Source: Methanosarcina sp. DH2 (GTDB lineage Archaea; Halobacteriota; Methanosarcinia; Methanosarcinales; Methanosarcinaceae). Taken from it: a stretch of 64,000 nucleotides of DNA. Below the pieces are notes generated by a model, which had not been told where the DNA came from, did not search any database, and saw only the letters and a list, made by a program, of their open reading frames with translations. How positions within the stretch are numbered: position 1 is the stretch's first letter; each line of letters opens with the position of its first letter. This document shows, in pieces, positions 31,355 to 57,181 of the stretch. The DNA is taken from NCBI RefSeq assembly GCF_020804225.1, contig NZ_WJBI01000001.1, forward strand, positions 542,681-606,680. Direction: 5' to 3'. The position numbers were made by a program, and so were the translations under genes.

Positions 31355-33676
31355 ATGCAAAACGAAGCCAGACTTCTTCATGTGACCGGCACGGTGCAGG
31401 GTGTCGGCTTTCGCCCATTTGTATACCAGCTTGCAAAAGCCCACAGGCTTTCAGGGTACGTGAAAAATCTTGGAAATCACGTGGAGATCCTTATAGAGGG
31501 ATACGAGATAAATATTCAAAATTTCCTTTCCGACCTTCCTGAAAAAAAGCCTCCACTTGCCAGACTTAAAGAAATTAAAGTCAGCACTGTCTCTTTTTTC
31601 GGTTATTCAAAATTTATTATCATACACAGCGAACCCGGGGCTTTTGAAAACTCTATAATTCCTCCGGATACGGCTATCTGTGAGGAGTGCAGGCTGGAGA
31701 TCTTTGATCCCTCTTCCAGGTACTACCATTATCCTTTTACTGTCTGTACAAACTGCGGCCCTCGCTATACTACCGTCCGTACGCTTCCCTATGACCGCGA
31801 AAATACAAGCATGGCAGATTTTCCTCTCTGCAAGGAATGTGATATTGAATATACCGATCCTCTCAACAGGAGGCATCATGCCCAGCCTGTCTGTTGCCCG
31901 AAATGCGGACCCGAACTCTGGCTTTCGGACTCTCGTGGGAAAGTGCTCGCAAAGAGTTATGAAGCAATTTTAACAGCTTCTGACCTTCTCCAGCAGGGTT
32001 CAATTCTTTCGGTCAAGGGTTTCGGGGGCTTTCATATCGCCTGCGATGCCCGAAAAGAAAAGCCCGTACAGGAACTTCGAAGACGGTTGGGTCGTCCGGA
32101 GCAGCCTTTTGCGGTCATGGCAAAAGATACCGAGGTTGTAGAGTCTTTTGCAGAACCCGGAGATTCAGGCAGGAAATGCCTCATATCTCCCCGCCGCCCC
32201 ATAACCGTGCTTCCCGGATTAAAAGACTTCAAACTGGCAGGATCAGTTTCTCCCGGTCTGCACAACATAGGGGTCATGCTACCCTATACAGGCACACAGA
32301 ACCTGCTTTTTGACCTCATGCCGGATTCTGTATACGTTATGACCTCTGCAAATCTTCCGGGACGGCCCATGATTGTCGAAAATGAAGAAGCGCTTGAAAA
32401 ACTTAAAGGGATTGTGGATTTTCACCTGCTGCACAACAGGGTTATTGCAAACAGAAACGACGATACGGTTATCCGGGTTGTAAACGGACAGAAAGCCTTT
32501 ATTCGGCGTTCCAGAGGTTTTGTTCCCGAACCTGTAGAGCTGCCTTTTGAAGTCGAAGCTTCTGCAGGAGTGGGGGCTGAAATGAACTCGACGGTAACTC
32601 TGGCAAAAGGAAAGCTGGCTTACATCTCTCAGTACATAGGAAACACCAATCATGTGGAGACCTTCAGGTATCACTCTGAAGTTTTCGAGCACCTGATCCG
32701 ACTTACGGGTATAGAGCCTCTCAATTGGGGTTGTGACCTGCATCCCGCTTTTAATACAACCCGATTTGCACTGAGCAAAGGTGGAGAAAAAACACTTCGG
32801 ATCCAGCACCACTACGCCCATATCCTAGCCCTTATGGCTGATAATTCCCTGCCAGTTGACTCCCGGGTCCTGGGAATTGCCCTTGACGGAGCCGGGTACG
32901 GCAGAGACGGGACAGTCTGGGGAGGGGAACTTCTGGGTTCATCCTATTTCGGATACGAGCGCCTGGGACATCTGCTTCCCCAACCTATGCCAGGGGGAGA
33001 CCTTGCCGTAAAAACTCCTTCCCGCATGGTCCTGGGCATGCTGTCAGGGAGGCTTGGAGAAGAAGAACTGAAAAAACTGCCTCTCTACTTCCCCCTGGAA
33101 AAACAGGAGTTTTCTACAGTTATGCAGCAGCTTCAAAGAAAAATAAATGTTACCACGAGTAGCAGCGCAGGGAGAGTGCTGGATGCGGCTGCGGCGCTTC
33201 TAGGGATATGCAAAGTGAGGACTTATGAAGGAGAGCCTGCAATGAAGCTTGAATCTGCAGCAAAGAAAAGTATTCATCGACCAGACCTCCCTCTGGTTTT
33301 TAGAAATTGGGGACAGTCCAGAACCTCTGTGCTTGATACGACTGAGCTCCTTCTGGGGGTTTATGAGCTTTCCGGTGGAAAGTATTCCCCTGCTGACCTT
33401 GCGTTTGCAGTTGAAGAGAACCTTGCAAAAGGAATCTCAGAAATTGCCATCTCCCTTGCTGCGAAAAACGGTTTTGAGAAGATAGGCCTGAGTGGAGGGG
33501 TTGCTTATAATGATCATATTACTTCATGCATTGCAGGAACTGTGAAGGAAGCAGGTTTTGAATTTCTTACGCACCGCAGTGTTCCGTGTGGAGACGGCTG
33601 CATTTCCTTTGGGCAGGCTGTAGCAGCTGGGCTTGGAACATATTCAAAAGAGCTCGATGATGCTGGAAGCACTTAA
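31355..33676 (+). CDS. hypF: Carbamoyltransferase HypF
   Basis: 773 residues with the full HypF order: acylphosphatase-like domain (about 1-95; GTVQGVGFRPFVYQLA), two zinc fingers (C-x2-C pairs from CEECRLEI to CCPKCG, about 108-190), YrdC-like domain (about 200-385; SILSVKGFGGFHIACDA), and Kae1/TobZ-like domain (about 400-770; QHHYAHILA, DGAGYGRDGTVWGGE). It makes the thiocarbamate that becomes the CN ligands of [NiFe] hydrogenase, with HypE. Other hyp genes are not adjacent. It implies functional or ancestral hydrogenases. Own promoter region 31229-31354, 127 bases. Confidence 0.96.
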   Translation: MQNEARLLHVTGTVQGVGFRPFVYQLAKAHRLSGYVKNLGNHVEILIEGYEINIQNFLSDLPEKKPPLARLKEIKVSTVSFFGYSKFIIIHSEPGAFENSIIPPDTAICEECRLEIFDPSSRYYHYPFTVCTNCGPRYTTVRTLPYDRENTSMADFPLCKECDIEYTDPLNRRHHAQPVCCPKCGPELWLSDSRGKVLAKSYEAILTASDLLQQGSILSVKGFGGFHIACDARKEKPVQELRRRLGRPEQPFAVMAKDTEVVESFAEPGDSGRKCLISPRRPITVLPGLKDFKLAGSVSPGLHNIGVMLPYTGTQNLLFDLMPDSVYVMTSANLPGRPMIVENEEALEKLKGIVDFHLLHNRVIANRNDDTVIRVVNGQKAFIRRSRGFVPEPVELPFEVEASAGVGAEMNSTVTLAKGKLAYISQYIGNTNHVETFRYHSEVFEHLIRLTGIEPLNWGCDLHPAFNTTRFALSKGGEKTLRIQHHYAHILALMADNSLPVDSRVLGIALDGAGYGRDGTVWGGELLGSSYFGYERLGHLLPQPMPGGDLAVKTPSRMVLGMLSGRLGEEELKKLPLYFPLEKQEFSTVMQQLQRKINVTTSSSAGRVLDAAAALLGICKVRTYEGEPAMKLESAAKKSIHRPDLPLVFRNWGQSRTSVLDTTELLLGVYELSGGKYSPADLAFAVEENLAKGISEIAISLAAKNGFEKIGLSGGVAYNDHITSCIAGTVKEAGFEFLTHRSVPCGDGCISFGQAVAAGLGTYSKELDDAGST

Positions 33677-50757: not shown

Positions 50758-51651
50758 CTAACAAAAAAGCAAACGTGGAAAATCCATATTCTTTTTCTGG
50801 AATCCAGCAGCATTCTTGTGCCCTCCACCGCCGTATTGCTGAGCAATTTCGGCACAATCAGGTGAGTCGGGATTCCCTGAATCAGACCTCAGGCTGAATA
50901 CTACCATATCCTCTACAGCCTGCCACATAATAGCAATATCATATTCGGGCTTCTTGTAAATGAATTCTCCAAGCTCGGAGATGTTCCCGGTAGTGTTCAC
51001 AAGCCTGGCTTTCCAGTTATGAAAAGTGCAATCTACCCCACGTTCGAAGGCTTTCTGAAGCTTGTAATTTTGAGCTTCTAGGAGTAATTCACCGATAGAT
51101 ACCATTCTATTTACAATATCTTCGTATTCGGAACTGGAACCAAGAAGCGCGTCCCATGCGCTATCATCAGGGTTTTTCACCATCAGACTGAAACCTGCAC
51201 TGAAAGCCCTGGTCTCAATGTATTCAAACTTCCATATATCTTTATCACCAATATAAGCAACAGCTGCAGGAGGCGGAACATATTCAGGATGCGTAAACTC
51301 CCATGTAAGTACACAGGCTGCTTTTTCAATGGATCTGATTCCCGGAATATTACTTGAATTCCACAGGTCCGGAAATTTCTCCATAGCGGTCTTATGATGG
51401 TCTATCCATATCAGTTTAGACCCGCAGGCTTTTACGAATTCATCCATTCTGTCACTTGCAAAATCAACAAGCCATACTTTTTCGGCTGCCCTTATTTCTT
51501 CCTCATTCCACGACTCTTTGCCGTAATTTATTGGAACAAACTTTATGGCAAATTCATCCCGGTCATAGTAATTCGCAGCGACAGCGGCTGAGCAGAGTCC
51601 GTCATTATCATCATGATAATAAATTAAAATCGTGTGTTTATCATCCGTCAT
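50758..51651 (-). CDS. DHH family phosphoesterase
   Basis: 297 residues with the DHH motif order: YYHDDNDGLCSAA (about 11-23), VDFASD (about 62), IDHHKTAME (about 83-91), AYIGDKD (about 131), and the C-terminal DHHA1 glycine motif QYGGGGHKNAAGF (about 273-285). Members are Mn-dependent nucleases or nanoRNA/cyclic dinucleotide phosphodiesterases; the substrate is unknown. It is monocistronic and lies just outside the putative integrated element. Confidence 0.88.
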   Translation of the reverse strand: MTDDKHTILIYYHDDNDGLCSAAVAANYYDRDEFAIKFVPINYGKESWNEEEIRAAEKVWLVDFASDRMDEFVKACGSKLIWIDHHKTAMEKFPDLWNSSNIPGIRSIEKAACVLTWEFTHPEYVPPPAAVAYIGDKDIWKFEYIETRAFSAGFSLMVKNPDDSAWDALLGSSSEYEDIVNRMVSIGELLLEAQNYKLQKAFERGVDCTFHNWKARLVNTTGNISELGEFIYKKPEYDIAIMWQAVEDMVVFSLRSDSGNPDSPDCAEIAQQYGGGGHKNAAGFQKKNMDFPRLLFC

Positions 51652-51778
51652 TTTTTATTCTCCTTTACTCCAAGGATCTCCTATGAATTCTATCATGTTT
51701 TCTACTGCACATTTCATAGATTCCAAACGTGCAGAAATATTTAATTTATGTGCCCATTCTGAAACTGAGAGTGAAAAG

Positions 51779-51850
51779 AGCCTCGGGCAGGATTTGAACC
51801 TAAGACCTCGTCCTTATCAGGGGCGCACTATACCTCTAAGCTACCAGGAA
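51779..51850 (-). pseudogene. Degenerate tRNA-Thr copy
   Basis: Runs parallel to the intact tRNA-Thr at 57110-57181 in the same orientation with about 14 mismatches in 72. The 3' part (T-arm GGTTCAAATCC, acceptor CCCGAGGC) is best kept. The anticodon stem has a C-A mismatch, the loop reads CTGATAA, and the 5' acceptor strand no longer pairs. It fits the far attachment site of an element integrated at tRNA-Thr. Confidence 0.75.
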
Positions 51851-52192
51851 GTAGTTTTCCAGTAAAACTACAGAAACTTAGTGTTTAATGTCTTCTTTTA
51901 TTTATTGTAATTTCTAGTAAATTTAATGTATTAGGGACCTTCAATATTCAAAACTCTCCTCATAAAGTTCCTTATATAATTCTCTGCAGGGCGAAAGGAA
52001 ATCTCTGGTGTGAGAATACTAAATCAAGTGACAACACGTTAAAATAACAATATTTTTAAATATCTAGCCCGATATAAATTATATAAGGGCCGAAAAGGGG
52101 AATAAAACTAAGTGAAAAACGGGAATAATAAAACCTCTTGCAGGCTTGGTACTGGATTTGTGAGAAATACTCTGAAGAATAGAGGCGACATA
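51851..52192. other. Intergenic region
   Basis: 342 bases, no gene. An alternative upstream extension of the zinc-ribbon gene from a GTG at 52112 has no ribosome site. Confidence 0.4.
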
Positions 52193-52558
52193 ATGAAGGG
52201 AAGCGACAAAATGAAGGAATTTTGCAATATCTGTGGTCGGGAACTGCTGGAAGATGTGCTGGTCGTCGATACCAGCCAGGATATGAAACCAATAAAATTC
52301 AAGGATGTTCACGGGGATAAGTCCGATCTGATATGCGTTGAGTGTGCAGCTGATTCGGTTGAGAATCCACCCTTCTTATGTTCGAGATGTGGGCAGCCCG
52401 TCGAATTCGGTGAGCATTTCTATATCTTAAAGGTAGGAACCACAAAACCTGGCGGTCCCAGGTTGGACTCTAAAGAAACATGCCCCGAAGATAAATATAT
52501 CTGTATCACATGTTATGATGAGTTTATGAACCTTGAAGAGGAGAAAGAAAGAGACTAA
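52193..52558 (+). CDS. Zinc-ribbon protein with three CxxC pairs
   Basis: 121 residues from MKGSDKMKEFCNICGRELLE; AGAGGCGAC precedes the ATG. Cys pairs CNIC (about 11), CVEC (about 55), CSRC (about 69) and CITC (about 105) would bind two zinc ions. The segment between them (DVLVVDTSQDMKPIKFKDVH) is beta-rich. No known family comes to mind. It is the first gene inside the tRNA-Thr-bounded region and reads toward its centre. Confidence 0.65.
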   Translation: MKGSDKMKEFCNICGRELLEDVLVVDTSQDMKPIKFKDVHGDKSDLICVECAADSVENPPFLCSRCGQPVEFGEHFYILKVGTTKPGGPRLDSKETCPEDKYICITCYDEFMNLEEEKERD

Positions 52559-53196
52559 ACGGAAATCCCTGTCTCTAAACTTTGTTCCTTATTTTGCCCT
52601 TAATTTTTTTTAATTCCTGGGCAAAAATCAGGGTCAAGTGCCTGAGACAATACTATATACATGGAAAAAACAGAACTGATTTTTCAAATCTGTTCATATT
52701 CTTCTCTTTTTTCTAGCTCTTTTCGTTATTTTTCTCAACAGATGGAACGCTTTTAATTAGGAGAGTCTATATAATTCAGAGGGAGGGGAGGAAGAAATAA
52801 TTTATTTCTTATTTTCTCTTTCTCTGTATTTACCCCCTCCCATTACAAGTGTTCTAAGTGTTCTTGATGAAAGAAAGTGTAAAAAGCAAAATATAGTTCA
52901 GTAAATGCCTTTAAGATCTTTTTATCATGCCTTAACTTTCACACATTCTAGTCCTTATACAGGTGGTGTTTCCCTTGGCAGTGATATAATGTGTTCATAA
53001 AGACCTATTCGCATGAGTTGTCTTGAGAATTACACTTGAAACACAGAACCTTTTATAAGACAATCCTAAAGGAGATGCCAAACCAGACTATACAGGCGAA
53101 TCATTGTTAAAAAATAATTTTCAAATCTGGCAAGCGGGCATATTTATCTTGGTTAGCTAGATTTGATCAGCGACTCCCAATTACGATTAGCCTGCT
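52559..53196. other. Intergenic region
   Basis: No gene. AAGAAATAATTTATTTCTT at 52793-52811 is a perfect dyad between convergent genes and may act as a transcript end. A GGGAGGGGAGG purine run precedes it. Confidence 0.45.
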
Positions 53197-55182
53197 TTAT
53201 CTTCTTCTATACAGGAATGATCCAAGCAGCCCTAATATCCCATAAACAATTTCAAAGCTAGGCATTCTTGTACTCTGTTCCTTTTCTGGTTCCTGCTCAA
53301 CGTTTATCGTTGAACTTCCATTGTTCTCAATATCTTTAGTATCAAATTCAGGCGGTATTTCAGTGTCAGCTTTTTCTACTATTGTCTTACCTGTTATTGC
53401 AAAAGGAGATAATCCAGGGGTTTGTGCTGTGAAATACAGATACTGGTTATCCTCATCTGAAAGACTGGTTGGTAGCTCATTCCACTTGTTATCGTTAAAC
53501 CTGTTCAGAGCGATAGAAGACTGGTCAATGTGTTTATCCTGTACCCAGGATTTCTCAACCTTGAAACAAACAACTGTGTTTTCTATATTCTTTTCAGTTG
53601 CATATCCGCTGTTGCCAACCCAGATATTGAGATAATTGTATACTCCACCTTCGGGGGAGTTCGGGGTAAGCGTGGATTTGTTTTTCAGCATCTCAACAAT
53701 GGTTGTTGTCCTGCCAACCGTCTTCTTTGAGTCAAAGCTCACATATATGACAGAGGTTGCGTTCCTTGTGAAATCAAACTTTATGGGCTTGTCATTTGTA
53801 ATGAAGACCTGGGAAAGTTCCTTTACTTCAACGTTCTTTTGAGGCTCAGGTGAACCACCAGCACCTCCACTGCTGCCGCTGCTGCTCTTTCTCAGTGCAC
53901 TTATTGTTATTACTTCAGAGGAACTGCCGCTTTCAGTGGTTACGGTGAGCCTCACTGGATAAGTTCCTTTGGAACTAAACTCATAAACAAAGCTCGCATC
54001 AGTGGATTCAATAGTTCCGTCGTTGCCAACATCCCAGATCCTTGAGATTATGTTCTGGGAAAGGTCAGTGAACTGGACGCAAAGAGGGATATAGCCGCTG
54101 GTAACATTCGAGTTAGGCACAGCTGCAGGGAGTATTTCTGTTACTGGGACATAGCTTATAAACTGCCCAAAAGAAATAGGCCTGCCTTCTACAGGTACTG
54201 TGGCGGTAACAGTGTTTGTAGCTGTGTCAATTACAGAAATAGTGTTGCTATCGGAATTCGCCACATATACTTTTTTTCCATCAGGAGTGACTGAAACACC
54301 TATAGGTCTGATACCTACATTTACAGTGGTTGTGACGTTGTTTGCAGCTGTGTCAAGCACAGAAATATTGTTGCTACCGAGATTAGTTACATATACTTTT
54401 TTTCCATCTGGGCTGACTGCAACTCCCAAGGGAATGATTCCTACGTCCACTGTAGCTGTAATCTTGTTTGTTGCTATGTCAATTACAGAGACAGTGTTGC
54501 TACTACCTTTAGTTACATATACCCTTGTTCCTTCTGGATTTACTGTAATTCCTGTAGGATAGGATCCTACATTCACTGTAGATATAACAGTGTTTGTAGC
54601 AGTATCAATCACAGAGACAGAATTGTTGAGAACTTCAGGGCTACTCGAATTCGTTACATATACCTTTGTTCCATCAGGGCTGACTGCAACTCCACAAGGC
54701 CAGTTTCCTACATTTATCGTAGCTGTAACAGTATTGTTTGCTGTGTCAATTACAGAAACGGTCTTGCCAGGAAATTTAAGGTTGCCATTGTTCGTCACGT
54801 ATACCTTTGTTCCATCCGGGCTGACTGCAATTCCGTAAGGACTGGACCCAACTTCCACTGTGGCTGTAACATTATTTGTAACTGTGTCTATTACAGAAAC
54901 ATTCCCATCAGCTTTTGCCACATATACCTTCGTCCCTTCTGGGTTTATTGCAACCCCCCAAGGATAGGCTCCTACATTCACTACAGTCGTAATAGTATTT
55001 GTTACAGTGTCAATCACAGAGACAGCATTGCTATCGTAGTTTGTAACGTATGCATGTTGAGCCATAGGGGAGGAATTTTGAGAACTAGTCGCCGATGCAA
55101 TAGGTAACAAAGAAATTAAGAAAATAAAAAAGAAGGCTATTGCAGTTAAAGCTATTGAATATGATTCTTCTTTATCTTTCAT
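53197..55182 (-). CDS. Surface protein: YVTN propeller, PKD, PGF-pre-PGF, C-terminal anchor
   Basis: 661 residues. Signal peptide at 1-31 (ALTAIAFFFIFLISLLPIAS). Seven to eight YVTN propeller repeats (about 40-335), each with VSVIDT-NTV-ATV and PDGTKVYVTN. One PKD domain (about 355-432; WDVGNDGTIESTDASFVYEF). A Ser/Gly linker, then a PGF-pre-PGF domain (about 452-605; IWVGNSGYATEKNIENTVVC). The end (RMPSFEIVYGILGLLGSFLY then RRR) is an archaeosortase-type sorting tail. It is exported and lipid-anchored by inference; the role may be adhesion or envelope structure. It lies inside the decayed tRNA-Thr element. Confidence 0.9.
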   Translation of the reverse strand: MKDKEESYSIALTAIAFFFIFLISLLPIASATSSQNSSPMAQHAYVTNYDSNAVSVIDTVTNTITTVVNVGAYPWGVAINPEGTKVYVAKADGNVSVIDTVTNNVTATVEVGSSPYGIAVSPDGTKVYVTNNGNLKFPGKTVSVIDTANNTVTATINVGNWPCGVAVSPDGTKVYVTNSSSPEVLNNSVSVIDTATNTVISTVNVGSYPTGITVNPEGTRVYVTKGSSNTVSVIDIATNKITATVDVGIIPLGVAVSPDGKKVYVTNLGSNNISVLDTAANNVTTTVNVGIRPIGVSVTPDGKKVYVANSDSNTISVIDTATNTVTATVPVEGRPISFGQFISYVPVTEILPAAVPNSNVTSGYIPLCVQFTDLSQNIISRIWDVGNDGTIESTDASFVYEFSSKGTYPVRLTVTTESGSSSEVITISALRKSSSGSSGGAGGSPEPQKNVEVKELSQVFITNDKPIKFDFTRNATSVIYVSFDSKKTVGRTTTIVEMLKNKSTLTPNSPEGGVYNYLNIWVGNSGYATEKNIENTVVCFKVEKSWVQDKHIDQSSIALNRFNDNKWNELPTSLSDEDNQYLYFTAQTPGLSPFAITGKTIVEKADTEIPPEFDTKDIENNGSSTINVEQEPEKEQSTRMPSFEIVYGILGLLGSFLYRRR

Positions 55183-56029
55183 TTATTTCCCCTTAATAAT
55201 CTTTCACTCTCTCTAAAAGTCATAAAAATATCAACAAAGATTATTCATTGATGGCCTTTAAATCTTTTCTTTAAAGCTTGGCTTTTATAGTCCTTTAATT
55301 TTAGAGTATTTGCCTAAAGAAATGGATAGGGTTGAAAGGAATATAAGTACAAACAAAAACGTGAGAATTTCAAATGATACTAACATAAGTGAGGGAATCA
55401 GATACAAAGAAACCATCATTGAAAATACGACTCAAAGTCAATATCTTCAATTAAAGTGATTTCACCAATTTCTTCCATTTAAATTCATCCTTTTTTCAGA
55501 AATTACACCTTATCCACACCTAAAACTTCAAAGTGTAAACTAAAGGGCAATTTCTACTCCTTATTTATATACAACTAGAACAACAATACCTTATTTATAT
55601 ATAATTAGATAAACAATGATAGTCTGAACTAAATATACAAGATTACATCTCCAGAACAGATATTTAACGCGAGTTAACCGGAGCCAAGAAGTAATCACTA
55701 CGCTTAACAAAGGCTGATTAACAGCTACAATATAATCTTTTATAAATCTAAATATAGATTTGCTATATCAAAAGCTACTTATTCAAAACATACGACAAAT
55801 TTACCAAACCCATGGGTATGCCCCGTAGCCTTCGAAATAATAAATGTACTGTCCCAATACAGAGATTAGAGTATTGCAAATCTGAAAATCAGAAAAGAGA
55901 ATAGATCACTTTAAATCGTTGATTTTGAAAAATAGAAGCTATATGTCCCTGAGATCAGAAATAGACCAAAAGTCTTTTGCGTATCATGACCAGAAAGAAT
56001 TCAATAAGTTTAAACCAGGAACACTATTT
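55183..56029. other. Intergenic AT-rich region
   Basis: No gene. Repeated CTTATTTATATA-AACTAGA motifs (55558-55615) are direct repeats. The 55930-56029 stretch may be the degraded 3' end of the integrase gene. Confidence 0.4.
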
Positions 56030-57027
56030 TCAATTATAGTGTGCCCAAAGATGCAATCGTTTAACTTTCTCTTTAGTTCGTCCCTTTTGCACGGAGTTTA
56101 TGGTTAATGTATCTTTTTCGCTGACTTCATTAGCTTTTAAAACGTCATCTACATCCCTGCCTGACAAATGAACGTATACTCCTAGCATATCTGAGCCCTG
56201 AGTCCAGCCAAAATATATGTTCATCTGAGCTTCTGTCAAGTAATTGTCCATGTAGGTGCAGCGAAAGTGTCGGAACAAGTAAGGATGGATCTTTTTGTTA
56301 ATCCCTGCTTTCTTGGCTATTCGTTGTAGCTTCATTTTATTGCCCCATATTGCATTGGTTTCAACGAATTTTCTTTACTTTTCAGTGTAACCCATAGAGG
56401 AGCATCTGGATAGTATCCTTCTGGATGTACTTCAATCCAGGCTTTCAAGTATCCTACACTCCAACTGCTCTGACTCGCTTATATCCCGTCTTTCCCTTGA
56501 CGCTTCTAATTGCTCCGTGTTTATCGAAAGAAACATGTTTGATATGTAGAGTGCCAATTTCTCCAATTTCTCCAATTCTTGCTCCGATGTCCCCTTACAA
56601 AGCAATTATTGCCCGATCTCTTTCATGCTCAGCACTTCTATCAACTTCAAAACATCTAATTCAGTCAACATCTTCTATGGAAGCTTCTAATCTTTCTTCT
56701 TTAGGTGGTCTTAATCCATCGTGTAAGCTCAGGATTTTCTTACTTGCGGTATCTTTTATAGAATTTTTTTAAAGCTACCTTATAGTCATGTTTTAGCCAT
56801 TGACTTTTATCTGACCTTTCCAATTCAGAGATATATATAAAAAGATCTCTTTTTTCAACTTTGTCAAGGTCAAGCTGAAGTTTCAAAGCAATGATTTTCA
56901 GGACTGAAATATATTTCAAAATACGATGTTGATCTAATCGCTCGGTAAAACAGTTATCAGCAAAATCTAAGATCAATTTCTTGTTCTTGTCAGAAATCGG
57001 TGCCTTACTTAGCGATTCTAGCCTCTT
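56030..57027 (-). pseudogene. Broken tyrosine recombinase (integrase)
   Basis: Minus-strand pieces in different frames make one integrase. 56740-56976 gives the N-terminal SAM-like core-binding domain (ELERSDKSQWLKHDYKVALK). The middle, with frameshifts and stops, gives DIGARIGEIG and IGTLHIKHVSFDKHGAI with GKTGYKRVRAVG. 56030-56335 gives the C-terminal catalytic part (HPYLFRHFRCT, GWTQGSDMLGVYVHLSGRD with the nucleophile Tyr). The His expected in HxxR reads Tyr. No intact start remains. It begins about 85 bases from the tRNA-Thr 3' end, on the same strand. Confidence 0.85.
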
Positions 57028-57109
57028 CTAAAAACTGTAATTATAAATATCCACATTTACTGTACCACTTCTTCCAGTGAATAAGTGGGCTTTAAACAAA
57101 AAAGAAAAA

Positions 57110-57181
57110 AGCCTCGGGCGGGATTTGAACCCGCGACCTCGTCCTTACCAAGGACGCGCTATACCCCTAAGCCACCAAGGC
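57110..57181 (-). tRNA. tRNA-Thr (GGT)
   Basis: Seventy-two bases: acceptor GCCTTGG/CCGAGGC (one T-G pair), anticodon stem CGTCC/GGACG with loop TTGGTAA (anticodon GGT), T-arm GCGGGTTCAAATCCCGC, discriminator T. Intact, and next to the integrase remnant. Confidence 0.95.

Follow-up and report, generated by a model that had tools for sequence, protein, structure and literature searches.

Two copies of a threonine tRNA lie in direct orientation about 5.3 kb apart in a 64,000-nucleotide stretch of a Methanosarcina chromosome (hereafter the window; contig C25:542681-606680 of the 4.6-Mb genome G000), with a broken tyrosine integrase beside one of them. This raises the question of whether the copies bound a single integrated virus or plasmid. 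A sequence-only reading of the region had proposed that they do, with a surface-protein gene and a zinc-ribbon gene as possible retained cargo, and had pointed to empty sites, intact integrase relatives and base composition as checks. We called tRNAs with ARAGORN and compared the locus across a genus sample of 31 genomes, in 30 of which the tRNA-Thr and its upstream flank could be matched. With a probability of roughly two in three, we conclude that the locus holds two dead relics at a genus-wide integration site, and that its two tRNA copies stem from two events, the degenerate copy marking a separate, older insertion.

The integration target is clear. An intact tRNA-Thr(GGT), as the sequence-only reading had it, is called at 57110-57181 on the minus strand; the gene is kept in nearly all members of the genus and here forms the attL side, so that a restored tRNA stands at one end of the inserted DNA. 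Twelve nucleotides past its 3' end lies a P'-arm-like motif, GTTTAAAGCCCACTTAT (57081-57097, minus strand), with five mismatches to the consensus GTTCAAAGCCTATTTCC, a fit equalled by a fraction of 0.006 of shuffled sequences, and at the same offset from the tRNA as in other members with this type of integrase.

The 3' flank of this tRNA is a genus-wide integration hotspot. Where both ends lie on one contig, the distance from tRNA-Thr to a downstream DHH-family phosphoesterase gene ranges from ~1.1 to 29 kb, the exception being G003, in which the two are ~257 kb apart and on opposite strands. Empty sites, consisting of tRNA-Thr, ~400 bp, the zinc-ribbon gene and DHH, do exist among the relatives (G019 and G029), and their spacers are 83% identical over the entire length. 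At the other extreme, G006 and G010, which are two species, carry a ~27-kb element at the same tRNA-Thr (L125/L126 and L123/L124 respectively). Besides a 385-aa integrase, the element codes for a BanI-type restriction enzyme with its methylase and for a rolling-circle Rep-like protein, and it is likely a provirus or plasmid. The two largest aligned parts of this element are 97-98% identical between the two genomes, as against 77-84% for the host flanks, which indicates that transfer into the tRNA-Thr site has been recent in parts of the genus. The ~27-kb element shares its target with the element whose remains lie in the window, and the integrases are related (about 47% amino acid identity). 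It differs in having its integrase at the distal end, in repeating only a 14-nt tRNA core (TCCCGCCCGAGGCT, present at both ends), and in being young and intact. We picture the tRNA-Thr 3' flank as a landing site for tyrosine-integrase elements that would bring their own tRNA 3' end.

The integrase beside the window's tRNA is indeed broken. This pseudogene (relic A; 55992-57099, minus strand) aligns piecewise with an intact 368-aa open reading frame of G025, with 899 of 1136 columns identical, six in-register stops and many, mostly frame-shifting indels; in a read-through match at the protein level, the stops number 15. The G025 gene is the intact relative that had been hoped for, lying uninterrupted directly 3' of the same tRNA-Thr. 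It matches PF00589 at 65.8 bits and DUF3435 and DIX weakly, and the window piece itself falls under the PF00589 cut-off (14.2 versus 27.1). Because the pseudogene and the G025 gene have diverged about as far as the host flanks (84% versus 82% DNA identity), relic A looks vertically inherited from one ancestral integration common to the window genome and G025. Mismatches by codon position (0.12, 0.11 and 0.29) show a third-position excess, indicating that the gene was under constraint for much of the time since the split from G025. In G007 and G001 only N-terminal integrase stubs are left at the same spot. Relic A would then be an integrase stub abutting the tRNA at attL, left by an element that integrated in an ancestor which the window genome shares with G025, G007 and G001. 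The integrase decayed in the window genome, and most of the element and its distal att site have been lost or become unrecognisable.

Where did that element end? A hidden attR between the integrase and the zinc-ribbon gene was considered and rejected: no 12-mer of the tRNA is matched anywhere from 52.7 to 57.1 kb, and the best 25-mer has 10 mismatches. With no recognisable att copy from the ancestral spacer to the tRNA, the distal end of relic A appears to be lost. The copy at 51778 is of att type, yet a conserved chromosomal gene separates it from relic A. That gene is the zinc-ribbon gene (52112-52558, plus strand; a weak double-zinc-ribbon match), the neighbour of DHH (50758-51651, minus strand), which belongs to the chromosomal flank. 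Since it adjoins DHH in at least 12 relatives, empty sites included, it is host DNA, and its proposed role as retained cargo falls away. Next to it, a remnant of the ancestral tRNA-Thr/zinc-ribbon spacer (52607-52712; 70-77% identity to the empty-site spacers of G029 and G019 and to G022) marks the end of the inserted DNA on the zinc-ribbon side. Composition gave no further help: G+C across the interval (0.31-0.43) shows no contrast with the surroundings, and we set it aside as an indicator of foreign DNA.

Between the integrase and the spacer remnant lies the surface-protein gene (53197-55182, minus strand), a member of a multicopy family, in which we recovered YVTN-type propeller and PKD matches together with a weak PGF-CTERM match. 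Its position means that it was inserted relative to the empty sites, and surface-type genes follow the same tRNA in several other genomes; it may be cargo. That it was beneficial cargo of the relic-A element in particular, a reading compatible with either one event or two, we consider decidedly doubtful. No relative has a counterpart at this site, and none occurs within the 4.7 kb reached by the contig of G025, where the integrase is intact. The best match is an 81% paralogous stretch from C26, in the window genome itself; other paralogs are many, and the genome contains 88 PKD_4 matches.

The second tRNA copy has a different setting. It is full-length but degenerate (51778-51850, minus strand), matches nucleotides 5-72 of tRNA-Thr at 85% (58/68) and scores 96 in local alignment, where 100 shuffles reach at most 24; both copies are on the minus strand, so that the direct orientation first noted holds. 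ARAGORN names it tRNA-Ile(GAT) because its anticodon has decayed to GAT. A functional tRNA-Ile(GAT) was ruled out, the stems being broken and the folding no better than that of shuffled sequences (z +1.6), and the automatic name at 51778-51850 should not become a gene annotation. After the copy, 34 nt (51749-51716, minus strand), or about 12 codons, match the start of a second type of integrase that occurs in G021, at the tRNA, and on G025 C143, with scores of 54 versus a shuffle maximum of 27 and 49 versus 29 respectively. Upstream of the copy by 32 nt, the offset seen in younger att sites, lies a decayed P-arm-like motif (51883-51899, minus strand), whose seven mismatches are not significant alone; the corresponding motif in G001 has five (p 0.018).

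Comparison with relatives shows that these parts make up a ~280-bp insertion (relic B; 51716-51996) in the divergent promoter region that the zinc-ribbon gene and DHH share. This gap is ~190 bp long and free of tRNA-like sequence in G004, G005, G013, G015 and G030, all of the other main clade. G000, G001 and G022, which fall on the three branches of clade I in a flank-DNA tree (100/100), do have the copy in the gap, so the insertion dates from the ancestor of that clade; in a further clade member, G010, only part of the insert is kept in the alignment. G022 has the copy at the same place, without an integrase or surface gene at this tRNA. A separate tRNA-Thr-like copy in G010 (oriented 31749-31800; L124:11848-11899) lies directly after DHH, unlike the zinc-ribbon/DHH placement in its close relatives.

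We read the window copy as an att footprint left by the relic-A integrase family, whose distal att sites carry a whole tRNA body, so that a full-length copy is what one would expect. The clearest case is a complete 7.6-kb element at tRNA-Thr(TGT) on G022 C2 (L221/L222, 1543-9240), with an intact 366-aa integrase: its distal site has a perfect repeat of tRNA nucleotides 1-54, then a ~35-nt insertion in the T-loop and lastly the tRNA 3' end. Insert-free full-length copies occur at the far ends of elements on G018 C80 (88%) and in G089, of another genus (L226, 1389-7998), where the copy is degenerate (76%), adjoins the integrase and is accompanied by inverted arm motifs as in the Methanosarcina layout. 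Around these att sites the arms form inverted repeats, with GTTCAAAGCCTATTTCC past the tRNA and GGAAATAGGCTTTGAAC lying 31-35 nt upstream of the distal copy. Because the consensus was read off the same sites, mismatch counts for the upstream arm are descriptive: one in G022 C2, two in G018 C80, three in G010 and four in G025 C143, and, at the same offset before older copies, five in G001, seven in G022 and seven in the window, of which only that of G001 is significant alone.

Copies of tRNA-Thr with a homologous two-hairpin T-loop insert, in GGT and TGT versions, were seen in G007, G010, G012, G015, G022 and G025 (look-alikes at L205:11569-11725, L214, L215, L216, L201 and L116). On inspection of the sequences, the hairpin arms vary yet stay complementary, as GCAAC/GTTGC in G010 and GAAAT/ATTTC in G015. 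A shared RNA motif across the family was tried and rejected, since with a strict pattern tRNA-type copies came up in Methanosarcina alone, and the other matches were not tRNA-like; an Rfam search of the insert-bearing copies matched only tRNA, and that in one copy. On C143 of G025, the second-type integrase comes after a tRNA-like copy, although an assembly gap (N run) at this point makes the exact order uncertain. A related integrase on G015 C97 (L225, 2336-3535; 59% amino acid identity) follows tRNA-Ser(CGA) and is accompanied by this arm motif as well, which indicates that the family has changed its target tRNA. We put it at even odds that elements of this Methanosarcinaceae integrase family carry a near-complete tRNA-Thr body, with inverted arms, in their att site; that in several Methanosarcina copies (GGT and TGT) a conserved ~35-nt two-hairpin insertion replaces the T-loop, leaving a distal att site that resembles a tRNA but has ceased to be an intact one, or an intact target; and that the window copy is an old, insert-free member.

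Such a design bears directly on whether one event or two took place. As full-length distal bodies are normal in the family (nucleotides 1-54 at 100% plus the T-loop insert in G022 C2, 88% in G018 C80, 76% in G089), the window could hold one element, with the integrase at attL, the degenerate copy as attR and the zinc-ribbon gene brought inside through capture or through duplication plus deletion. The direct orientation of the copies suits this account, and the start of a second-type integrase behind the copy would be expected had the element integrated ahead of an older one. We nonetheless regard it as unlikely. The zinc-ribbon and DHH promoter halves are near-contiguous across the ~280-bp insert, which favours a simple insertion separate from relic A, and capture or duplication would call for breakpoints that almost coincide; G022, moreover, has the copy without any such integrase at this tRNA. 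What stands of the integrated element first proposed is the integration at tRNA-Thr, the decay of its integrase, the empty sites, the intact integrase relative in G025 and an att-type copy. A single 5.3-kb element bounded by both copies is not supported, given a copy that lies beyond a conserved zinc-ribbon gene, occurs without the integrase in G022 and precedes a different integrase start. Should the zinc-ribbon gene have been rearranged at a later stage, the copy could still represent relic A's attR, and the order of copy and second-type integrase in G025 is also expected from nested integrations at the tRNA itself.

Ordinary duplication of a tRNA gene, with no mobile DNA involved, would likewise yield a full-length copy, and a copy alone is no proof of mobility. 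This one, however, lies between an arm-like motif, at the spacing usual in the family, and an integrase start, and comparable copies in relatives adjoin integrases or element ends, all of which make such a duplication very improbable. We therefore return to two relics from two events. Relic B would be a ~280-bp fragment that entered the zinc-ribbon/DHH gap in the ancestor of the clade to which the window genome belongs; with its arm motif, full-length tRNA-Thr copy and second integrase start, it would represent the att region of a different member of the integrase family. Both the order of events and the route of relic B into the promoter region are what we infer from these comparisons.

Read in this way, the locus follows a single methanogen tRNA site as it is occupied, eroded and re-occupied across one genus. 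It also carries a caution, in that two tRNA copies and an integrase alone do not delimit one element, and the conservation of the neighbouring genes should be checked. The att design of a whole tRNA body with a T-loop insertion can be tested in the complete young element of G022 C2. We found no earlier description of this tRNA-Thr site in the open-access literature (most subscription papers were not searchable).

In its restored tRNA end, an integrase beside the att site, repeated occupation and decay, the site resembles known tRNA-integrated islands and proviruses (Islander, PMC4383910; archaeal review, PMC8371274), but it has no displaced 3' fragment that clearly pairs with the restored tRNA, the copy being a whole body. 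As in SSV-type self-splitting ('suicidal') integrases (PMC8371274), an archaeal tyrosine integrase acts at a tRNA; the integrated G025 gene differs in being unsplit, a single uninterrupted reading frame that matches PF00589 and not Phage_integr_3. Partial tRNAs of integrated archaeal elements have been misread as tRNA genes (PMC9897764), much as the tRNA-Thr relic here is called tRNA-Ile(GAT), although the window copy is full-length, with an integrase start behind it, rather than only a 3' fragment.
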